DNA of 64,000 nucleotides from Acinetobacter sp. YWS30-1 (GTDB lineage Bacteria; Pseudomonadota; Gammaproteobacteria; Pseudomonadales; Moraxellaceae). Below the pieces are notes generated by a model, which ran no database searches, was not told the origin of the DNA, and worked only from the letters and a program-made list of their open reading frames with translations. Location of the stretch: contig NZ_CP114606.1 of NCBI RefSeq assembly GCF_033558715.1, forward strand, positions 1,116,001 through 1,180,000, in the 5' to 3' direction. Positions 11,860 to 19,649 of the stretch are shown here, piece after piece (within the stretch, counting starts at the first letter, position 1; each line of letters begins with the position of its first letter). Made by a program: the position numbers and the translations under genes.

Positions 11860-11898
11860 ATGAAAAGACCCTGAACAGCATTGCTGTCCCACAATTTT

Positions 11899-13086
11899 TC
11901 ACAAGAGGAAGCTCATTTGAGCTTCCTCTTGTTTTATGGGTATTTTATCGGGTGAAAATAAAGCTTTTAAAGTTCTTCTTTCAAACAAATTCACTTGAAT
12001 TATTCTGAGTAAACGTTGAACTGTCCAACCTGTTTTTCCTAAATGTTGAGCGAAACTCACCAATAAATAGGCGATCATCGCAATCCAGATTTGTGTCTGA
12101 ATTGCGTTCCTGCTGCGACCTAGAAACGCTTTTAATTTGAGATTCTGCTTAATCGCCTTAAAGAACAGCTCAACTTTCCAACGATCTTTATAAATCGCCG
12201 CAATGGTGGAGGCGGCTAAATGAAAGTTATTGCTGAGAAAGCTAAAGTGCTTGCCACTTTGCTGATCTCTATATTCAATTCTTCTTAACACTGGGGCTTT
12301 TCTTTTTAGGGCATGTGCGCTATTCAGCTGAATGGTTTCATCTTTTAGAATACCTTTGGATTCAAGCACTGGATGTTGCTGGATCACCTGATACACAGAT
12401 TTAGGCCTAAAACGTGTGACAAATCCAATGTTTTGAGCAGTCAGATTTGCATACCATTGGTAATCGACATAGCCTTTATCAAAAACTACAATGCTGCCAG
12501 CAGGAAACTGGAATTTGCGGCCTTGTACCATGTCATTTTCTTTGCCATTTTCAACTGCAACAAACTCAGGAATATCATTGCTGTGATTCAATCCTATACT
12601 GAGTTTCATGCTGGCTTTTGAGTCGTGAACTTTGGCCCATTCACATAAGGAAAGCGACAGGTCAATATGACTGGCATCCAAGGAATACAAGGGATTCTTA
12701 AAGCGAAATTTATGAGCGACTTTTGAGTGGTCATAGTATTTAAGCAACTTGTAAAATAGCTGTTGATACAAGGCAGCAGGCTGCTGCTCATTGATTCGTG
12801 CCAGCGTGCTTCGGGGAATAGACTTTGCTCCGAGATGACTTAGCTTTTCCTGTTGGCACTCCAAATTGGATTGAATATCTCTCAGACTTTGCCTACAAGA
12901 GAATTGAGACATCAATATGGCAATAAACTGATCCCACCGGGAAGCCGCTCTAAATTTCTGTCCAACATGGTGTACTTTAGCAAGTTGTTCAAAATCCTGT
13001 CGCACAACAGGTTTAATTAGCTCATGAAATACGGTATTCTGATGTAACAAAACCTGAATCCTGGTCGTTAAAGTGTTTGTTTGCAC
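11899..13086 (-). CDS. IS4-family DDE transposase, full length
   Basis: Transposase of 395 residues. Catalytic features of the IS4 family are visible: the first aspartate in YSLDASHIDLSLS, the second in IVVFDKGYVDYQ, and the YREK signature Y-x2-R-x3-E-x6-K in YKDRWKVELFFKAIK, which carries the catalytic glutamate. The N-terminal part (HHVGQKFRAASRWDQFIAI) is the usual DUF4372-like region of this group. The frame is intact to residue 395, unlike the copy at 18.3 kb, so this copy could supply active transposase for both elements. Confidence 0.93.
   Translation of the reverse strand: MQTNTLTTRIQVLLHQNTVFHELIKPVVRQDFEQLAKVHHVGQKFRAASRWDQFIAILMSQFSCRQSLRDIQSNLECQQEKLSHLGAKSIPRSTLARINEQQPAALYQQLFYKLLKYYDHSKVAHKFRFKNPLYSLDASHIDLSLSLCEWAKVHDSKASMKLSIGLNHSNDIPEFVAVENGKENDMVQGRKFQFPAGSIVVFDKGYVDYQWYANLTAQNIGFVTRFRPKSVYQVIQQHPVLESKGILKDETIQLNSAHALKRKAPVLRRIEYRDQQSGKHFSFLSNNFHLAASTIAAIYKDRWKVELFFKAIKQNLKLKAFLGRSRNAIQTQIWIAMIAYLLVSFAQHLGKTGWTVQRLLRIIQVNLFERRTLKALFSPDKIPIKQEEAQMSFLL
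11902..11931 (+). terminator. Hairpin with T-run at the left end of IS4 copy 1
   Basis: Perfect 13-bp inverted repeat CAAGAGGAAGCTC / GAGCTTCCTCTTG with loop ATTT, followed by TTTTAT on the + strand. It overlaps the end of the transposase frame. Read on the + strand it is a terminator that would stop transcription arriving from aroP; the same structure occurs at 18223-18252 in copy 2, facing pstB. Confidence 0.7.
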
Positions 13087-13209
13087 TCATATTTTAACTG
13101 TTAGGACTCAGGTTTTTTTATTTAAAGCAAACTATGGGACAGCAGTGCCCTGAACAGGGTCTTTTTTTATGTCAATAAGGTGCTAACTGTCTATTTAATT
13201 ATCATTAAA

Positions 13210-18165: not shown

Positions 18166-18199
18166 GAAGTTTGATCTAATGAAAAAAGGGCTAAAAAGC

Positions 18200-19468
18200 C
18201 ATTGCTGTCCCACAATTTTTCACAAGAGGAAGCTCATTTGAGCTTCCTCTTGTTTTATGGGTATTTTATCGGGTGAAAATAAAGCTTTTAAAGTTCTTCT
18301 TTCAAACAAATTCACTTGAATTATTCTGAGTAAACGTTGAACTGTTCAACCTGTTTTTCCTAAATGTTGAGCGAAACTCACCAATAAATAGGCGATCATC
18401 GCAATCCAGATTTGTGTCTGAATTGCGTTCCTGCTGCGGCCTAGAAACGCTTTTAATTTGAGATTCTGCTTAATCGCCTTAAAGAACAGCTCAACTTTCC
18501 AACGATCTTTATAAATCGCCGCAATGGTGGAGGCGGCTAAATGAAAGTTATTGCTGAGAAAGCTAAAGTGCTTGCCACTTTGCTGATCTCTATATTCAAT
18601 TCTTCTTAACACTGGGGCTTTTCTTTTTAGAGCATGTGCGCTATTCAGCTGAATGGTTTCATCTTTTAGAATACCTTTGGATTCAAGCACTGGATGTTGC
18701 TGGATCACCTGATACACAGATTTAGGCCTAAAACGTGTGACAAATCCAATGTTTTGAGCAGTCAGATTTGCATACCATTGGTAATCGACATAGCCTTTAT
18801 CAAAAACTACAATGCTGCCAGCAGGAAACTGGAATTTGCGGCCTTGTACCATGTCATTTTCTTTGCCATTTTCAACTGCAACAAACTCAGGAATATCATT
18901 GCTGTGATTCAATCCTATACTGAGTTTCATGCTGGCTTTTGAGTCGTGAACTTTGGCCCATTCACATAAGGAAAGCGACAGGTCAATATGACTGGCATCC
19001 AAGGAATACAAGGGATTCTTAAAGCGAAATTTATGAGCGACTTTTGAGTGGTCATAGTATTTAAGCAACTTGTAAAATAGCTGTTGATACAAGGCAGCAG
19101 GCTGCTGCTCATTGATTCGTGCCAGCGTGCTTCGGGGAATAGACTTTGCTCCGAGATGACTTAGCTTTTCCTGTTGGCACTCCAAATTGGATTGAATATC
19201 TCTCAGACTTTGCCTACAAGAGAATTGAGACATCAATATGGCAATAAACTGATCCCACCGGGAAGCCGCTCTAAATTTCTGTCCAACATGGTGTACTTTA
19301 GCAAGTTGTTCAAAATCCTGTCGCACAACAGGTTTAATTAGCTCATGAAATACGGTATTCTGATGTAACAAAACCTGAATCCTGGTCGTTAAAGTGTTTG
19401 TTTGCACTCATATTTTAACTGTTAGGACTCAGGTTTTTTTATTTAAAGCAAACTATGGGACAGCAGTG
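18200..19468 (-). mobile_element. IS4-family insertion sequence, copy 2 (1269 bp)
   Basis: Same length, orientation and ends as the copy at 11879-13147, bounded by its own 10-bp duplication GCTAAAAAGC (18190-18199 and 19469-19478). The different target repeats show that the two copies inserted independently rather than as a composite transposon. Three base differences from copy 1 were found by eye, one of which creates a stop codon in the transposase. Confidence 0.92.
18220..19407 (-). pseudogene. IS4-family transposase with premature stop
   Basis: Identical to the transposase of copy 1 for 353 residues, then a TGG to TGA change (base 18346 on the + strand) stops translation after FAQHLGKTG. 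The 42 C-terminal residues beyond 18346 are no longer translated. The DDE residues, including the YREK motif, lie before the stop, so catalysis is not obviously destroyed, but the C-terminal helix region is missing. The other two differences from copy 1 are silent. Whether the shortened protein (18346-19407) is functional is unknown. Confidence 0.85.
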
Positions 19469-19649
19469 GCTAAAAAGCTCTTTTTTTTATATCCAAAAGT
19501 AACCAAAGAATAGAAGATATATCAATTGAATCAGTGAAATGTGGAAAAATAAACCGAATCCTATTGTGCCCTAAATTCTTATAGAATATGCCGTCTTTGA
19601 CATGGCAGAGCTGTCAAAAGATAGATGTTAAGAAAAGGTTGCATCCGCT

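Follow-up and report, generated by a model that had tools for sequence, protein, structure and literature searches.

Two copies of one IS in broken terminators

The window analysed is a stretch of 64,000 nucleotides from Acinetobacter sp. YWS30-1 (contig NZ_CP114606.1). It contains two copies of the same insertion sequence (IS), each of which interrupts an intrinsic terminator behind a host gene (Table 1). The gene upstream of copy 1 encodes an AroP-like permease, for which AroP is the top NCBIfam match (661 bits, short of the cut-off of 848). The gene upstream of copy 2 is pstB, whose product has an NCBIfam match above the cut-off.

Table 1. The two insertions and the terminators that they interrupt (positions in the window)
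Feature	Position	Strand	Basis
Left half of the interrupted AroP-gene terminator: A-tract, left arm and tip	11863..11878	.	Sequence; orthologous IS-free terminators in L373 and L374
iso-ISAbe18 copy 1, 1269 bp, CATTG...CAGTG	11879..13147	- (strand of transposase)	Sequence
Transposase of copy 1, 395 aa, IS4 family	11899..13086	-	DDE_Tnp_1 and DUF4372; YREK motif
Strong internal hairpin at the left end of copy 1, 14-bp stem	11901..11932	.	Fold -24.4 kcal/mol, z -6.9; self-match of IS nt 22-53
Right duplication, right arm and T-run of the AroP-gene terminator	13148..13169	.	Sequence; short residual hairpin still present
Left half of the interrupted pstB terminator, with the left duplication at 18190-18199	18182..18199	.	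Sequence; orthologous IS-free terminator in L353
iso-ISAbe18 copy 2, 1269 bp	18200..19468	-	Sequence
Transposase frame of copy 2, 353 aa against 395	18346..19407	-	Stops early
Right duplication (19469-19478), right arm and T-run of the pstB terminator	19469..19489	.	Sequence

Copy 1 is flanked by the target repeat CCCTGAACAG (11869-11878 and 13148-13157). Its empty site, AAAAGACCCTG-AA-CAGGGTCTTTT, is a perfect palindrome with its axis 1 bp from the repeat centre. The target repeat of copy 2 is GCTAAAAAGC, also of 10 bp; here the stem of the empty site includes one G-U pair and the axis lies exactly at the repeat centre. With the element and one repeat taken out, both sites become terminator-like (AAAAGACCCTGAACAGGGTCTTTT for the AroP gene and AAAAAAGGGCTAAAAAGCTCTTTTTTT for pstB). 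The original prediction, that the repeat of copy 1 is central in a perfect hairpin rebuilt on removal of the element and that the same element had entered the equivalent position of the pstB terminator, is thus confirmed.

The orthologous terminator is found without an IS in the closest of the eight relatives shown for each gene: the closest two for aroP, with few bases differing, and the closest one for pstB, with the same core. More distant relatives of both carry other sequence at the site, often a different terminator. In a pattern search, two other terminators matched the exact empty site of the AroP gene, with no aroP or pstS match alongside.

The ends of copy 1 are the imperfect terminal repeats CATTGCTGTCCCA and CACTGCTGTCCCA, and its junctions keep terminator-like matches (for example, 13147-13160). 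The stem of its internal hairpin is perfect and overlaps the end of the transposase frame. A U-rich tail (UUUUAU, + strand) follows this hairpin only opposite the transposase strand.

Identity of the element

The element is an iso-ISAbe18 of the IS4 family, at least 99% identical to plasmid copies annotated as ISAbe18 family; the name rests on the annotation of these copies and not on the ISfinder reference. It has a single ORF. The transposase scores 236.2 bits against the curated IS4 model NF033592 (cut-off 115) and includes the PF01609 DDE domain. Its translation contains YKDRWKVELFFKAIK, in agreement with the Y-(2)-R-(3)-E-(6)-K signature of the family as PMC2266710 gives it.

Target sites of ISAbe18 in Acinetobacter

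From the matches listed in one-genome-per-species assemblies of the genus, 79 distinct copies of full length were collected; over the longest match, their identity to the copy in the window is 73-100%. Copies truncated at a contig end were left out and a partial sister copy (L195) was dropped. We scored the 75 copies with exact target duplications (9-11 bp, about one helix turn), which come from 25 Acinetobacter genomes. The score is the number of pairs out of 11 around an axis that was allowed to lie up to 1.5 bp from the repeat centre. The remaining four copies (L038, L039, L050 and L088) have no exact duplication and were left unscored; all except L050 still lie between an A-run and a T-run.

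At least nine pairs were found in 66 of the 75 empty sites and at least ten in 53, and in every one of the 75 the best axis is no more than 1 bp from the centre of the duplication. Positions 5-100 nt after stop codons (24,134 in total) served as a 3' intergenic control and reach nine pairs in 4.0% and ten in 1.1% of cases; for 61,182 positions of the window itself these values are 3.5% and 0.5%. The target sites are largely independent: clustering of 40-nt stretches at 80% identity gives 72 clusters. Nine sites score below nine pairs. The host genome carries 11 full ISAbe18-type copies, none of which is among the four weakest of the scored sites.

As a further control we used an unrelated IS of 862-864 bp, presumably of IS5 type, with eight copies, all in one genome (G048). 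As no duplication was found, the junction itself was scored and a wider range of axes allowed, and none of the eight copies reaches nine pairs. Insertion of ISAbe18 at terminator hairpin tips is therefore more frequent than chance, and the effect is real and strong. The original prediction had suggested target choice by terminator palindromes, to be examined by scoring empty sites against 3' intergenic positions; that comparison is favourable, and the random positions and the unrelated IS lend further support.

Anatomy and gene context of the targets

An alignment of the 55 sites with 10-bp repeats shows an A-tract from about -14 to -9 and a T-tract from about +9 to +13, with varied arms between them. 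A is present in 90-98% of sites at -12 to -10, and T in 94-98% at +10 and +11. A stricter stem rule holds for 65 of the 75 targets, and both tracts lie within 15 nt of the axis in 59. With this distance extended to 18 nt the count is 60 of 75, compared with 108 of 600 background terminator-like dyads (from 492,835 bp). Tract spacing is also narrower in targets: the distances of the two tracts from the axis add up to 17.7 (sd 1.8), as against 19.5 (sd 5.7) in background terminators of the two-way type.

A simple ORF rule placed 72 of the 75 sites: 38 lie between convergent genes, 30 between tandem and one between divergent genes, and three are inside ORFs. Where a gene points its 3' end at the site, its stop codon lies a median of about 35 nt away. 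Division of the 30 tandem sites by IS orientation (18 and 12) reveals no marked preference. We also considered whether copies are oriented so that the left-end hairpin replaces the host terminator. Neither these tandem sites nor the A- and T-runs (T longer in 30, A longer in 22, equal in 23) favour this idea, which was rejected.

Pairing in the arms goes beyond what base composition gives. Where the outer A/T motif is matched, all seven inner pairs are formed in 51 of 64 targets compared with 183 of 4483 background positions. When 3' halves are swapped among sites, an average of 5.57 of 8 positions pair (sd 0.09), down from 7.19. If sites above the median score of a position weight matrix (PWM) are taken (18 background sites and 38 targets), 89% of each have at least seven of eight pairs. 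Background sites with high scores thus pair about as well as the targets do, and this comparison does not separate a reading of structure from a reading of symmetric sequence within Acinetobacter.

Derivatives and a second IS4-family element

MITE-like derivatives with the same terminal repeats have at least nine pairs in 10 of 12 usable sites. The set comprised 20 fetched regions, 12 with both ends and a duplication (up to two mismatches) and eight without usable ends. In genome G040, which carries derivatives of variable length, 17 of 19 regions were usable (two had no usable ends) and 15 of the 17 have at least nine pairs; three of these derivatives are also among the 75 scored copies. Both sets were scored with the better of the two repeat copies, which tilts their counts slightly toward the hypothesis. 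The MITE-like elements with ISAbe18-type ends measure 273-379 bp (L392-L407; G042, G106, G108, G111 and G127) and also occur at terminators. G040 contains about 20 ends of ISAbe18 type (L101-L118), and the elements measured there, of 924-1429 bp, are very variable.

A second IS4-family element, of about 1.39 kb and with TAATGCC ends, has at least nine pairs in 18 of 20 copies from three genomes. Its transposase is 20-23% identical to that of ISAbe18 and about 36% identical to that of E. coli IS4. In the host genome this element measures 1391 bp, occurs in at least three sequence variants with 12 strong matches, and is found in terminators (for example, L161, L165 and L191).

IS4 of Escherichia coli

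The E. coli IS4 sample consists of 19 copies on chromosomes, taken from the 60 rows listed out of 2739 records with a match. Two were selected for their position within a gene (ygeA and gatY), and one, the K-12 record, for its name; the rest were chosen blind to the site, with rows carrying several copies favoured at first. At least nine pairs were found in 13 of the 19 copies and seven of the ten distinct targets. These are the sites at bamD (three copies), eno/ygcG (three), adhE/tdk (two), tynA/feaB, pdxK/crr and ogrK, together with one palindrome hit at two places. The nanX site scores 4 of 11 in four copies (K-12 and three other records), the in-gene sites score 8 (ygeA) and 7 (gatY), and a plasmid copy (L211) scores 8. 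Both eno and adhE have IS4 insertions in opposite orientations. The rebuilt adhE empty site is identical over 108 of 108 bases to five E. coli records among the matches listed. IS4 was also once reportedly found in the pheST attenuator.

The palindrome hit at two places is the IS4 target in L339 and L348, and in L339 an IS200-type transposase gene is annotated beside it. At a guess, this target may be the IS200-type element's own hairpin.

One amendment to the original prediction is that the trait is not confined to the element in the window: the second, distant IS4-type element and E. coli IS4 behave in the same way in most of the copies scored.

Wider relatives

Of ten named plasmid relatives that were retrieved, eight gave ends, and seven of these eight have at least nine pairs; ISRm16 and a Phocaeicola element both score 11 of 11. 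A scan of 84,980 species genomes gave 550 relatives, of which the best 80 were taken, 76 were examined and 41 yielded ends. Among these 41, 17 of 36 relatives outside Acinetobacter have at least nine pairs, some being copies from one genome, and the Bacteroidota copies score 5 to 8. For several relatives, among them some in Bacteroidota, no palindrome is seen at the target. The alphaproteobacterial copies use mostly GC-rich palindromes such as GGGCTTGACCC, which lack A/T tracts, so that symmetry is the common factor.

Three copies in Thiomicrorhabdus Milos-T2 (L290, L291 and L292) have the identical duplication CCAGGCCTGG with different flanks, and in that lineage sequence as well as symmetry may therefore be read. 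Distant IS4-like elements of other gammaproteobacteria were represented by 13 loci with a long ORF. Ends were found in six, one of which belongs to the host itself; the remaining five comprise one with a score of 9 of 11 and four with 5-6 of 11. On a tree of 45 transposases the palindrome label is more clustered than in shuffles and requires 13 changes, compared with 16.4, a value as low being reached in three of 200 shuffles; near-copies contribute to this result.

How the target may be chosen

Insertion takes place at the tip, it is centred on the axis, the arms are complementary beyond what base composition gives, and IS-free relatives carry terminators at these positions. We think it probable that ISAbe18 and related IS4-family elements pick their targets by dyad symmetry and that terminators are simply the usual palindromes of this kind. 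The transpososome, with its two transposon ends and presumably a two-fold symmetry, would capture a palindrome of about 20-30 bp and join both ends about 10 bp apart, symmetrically about the palindrome axis. Palindromes of that size in Acinetobacter and E. coli would usually be intrinsic terminators, chiefly two-way ones flanked by an A-tract and, on the opposite side, a T-tract, and the element would consequently land at a hairpin tip just 3' of genes. The transposase itself may read the symmetry, either in the form of an extruded hairpin or cruciform, or as a duplex that is symmetric and bendable. The benefit could be a safe landing place outside coding DNA, and the left-end hairpin, together with the residual matches at the junctions, might partly replace the lost terminator.

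The transposase could instead read a symmetric duplex sequence or bend (an A-tract about 9 bp to the left, a T-tract about 9 bp to the right and GG..CC between), the ability to form a hairpin being incidental. The strong symmetric logo of the 55 sites, the narrow spacing of the tracts and the pairing of PWM-picked background sites would all fit. We nevertheless regard this as rather unlikely: seven of the 11 targets without the outer motif form all seven inner pairs, and only two of the 64 with it form four or fewer. The arms also covary beyond column composition. The best argument for symmetry comes from the comparison with relatives that insert into other palindromes, those without A/T tracts.

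Two further explanations have been considered. A paused RNA polymerase or an RNA hairpin at terminators might recruit the transpososome, as the nature of the targets and the many sites between convergent genes would allow. Such coupling to transcription seems improbable given the lack of a marked orientation bias, in the lengths of the A- and T-runs as in the tandem sites, and given the relatives that use palindromes with no T-run. Alternatively, insertion could be nearly random, purifying selection leaving only the harmless copies behind genes. Most copies are indeed intergenic and near stop codons, yet selection cannot account for the position of the best axis within 1 bp in all scored sites. 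Other 3' intergenic positions should be equally harmless and seldom have ten pairs, and the unrelated IS, in one of the same genomes, does not share the pattern. We have rejected selection alone on the basis of this centring and of the two controls, and consider it extremely improbable. Dyad symmetry remains our preferred reading.

Whether the property is old is a matter on which we are evenly divided. Palindrome reading may be an ancestral feature of IS4-family transposases, common to the IS4 and ISAbe18 branches (about 20% identity) and lost in some lineages, in which case terminators would be a general safe harbour for the family, including E. coli IS4.

Relation to known systems

Group IIC introns use terminator hairpins as landing sites; their mobility is RNA-based, whereas ISAbe18 encodes a DDE transposase. 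The nearest case within the IS4 family is ISRm22 of S. meliloti 1021, all copies of which are described as lying in REP sequences with insertion at the palindromy axis (PMC1525189, Tobes and Pareja 2006). As in that account, ISAbe18 combines an IS4-family transposase, palindromic targets and insertion at the axis. ISRm22 is reported to use a repeated REP target with 6-bp repeats, whereas the sites of ISAbe18 are diverse intrinsic terminators, spread over many clusters instead of one repeated target, with the longer duplications given above (10-14 bp in IS4-type elements). The same source lists ISPpu9, ISPpu10, ISPa11 and ISRm19, of the IS110 family, as targeting REP sequences; these resemble ISAbe18 in their palindromic extragenic targets and differ in enzyme family and in the REP target. 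De Palmenaer et al. (2008) describe strong conservation of target arms in the IS4 subgroup and in ISRm22. The main text does not contain the word 'terminator' (PMC2266710), and those arms may or may not be of the kind seen here.

IS1272/TnSha1 (IS1182 family) was described in 2016 as targeting hairpins, with five of seven named sites confirmed as terminators (PMC4923244). The sites of ISAbe18 are likewise hairpins, many of them terminators, with little conservation of primary sequence and use in both orientations. By that description, IS1272 differs in breaking the stem, in a blunt partial deletion of the target, in the lack of a duplication and in its transposase family; exact duplications flank 75 of the 79 full ISAbe18 copies.

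ISAbe18 insertions upstream of bamA, obtained under selection, are reported in both orientations (PMC8552602). In the listed papers that name ISAbe18, the word 'terminator' is absent from the main text. A search of the literature on links between ISs and terminators, which included few subscription journals, found IS1272 and no case of an IS4-family element at a terminator tip. The original prediction considered that the behaviour might be undescribed for an IS4 element. This holds for terminator tips in the literature covered, and does not hold for palindromes in general in view of the 2006 account of ISRm22. Insertion at a palindrome axis by an IS4-family element is known; what is added here is the aim at intrinsic terminators, common to two distant branches.

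Significance

Landing at terminator tips is so far known for only a few mobile elements. The present observations amount to a simple landing rule for members of a widespread IS family, that is, the tips of terminators just behind genes. Isolated reports on REP elements, on target arms and on IS1272 with its hairpin targets come together in a single idea that can be tested, and the choice of targets by DNA shape would become directly accessible to experiment. The rule would explain the many near-neutral copies and would predict transcripts with lost or altered termination. If the transposase does read the shape of the palindrome and not its sequence, these elements would constitute a natural system for terminator-directed integration.
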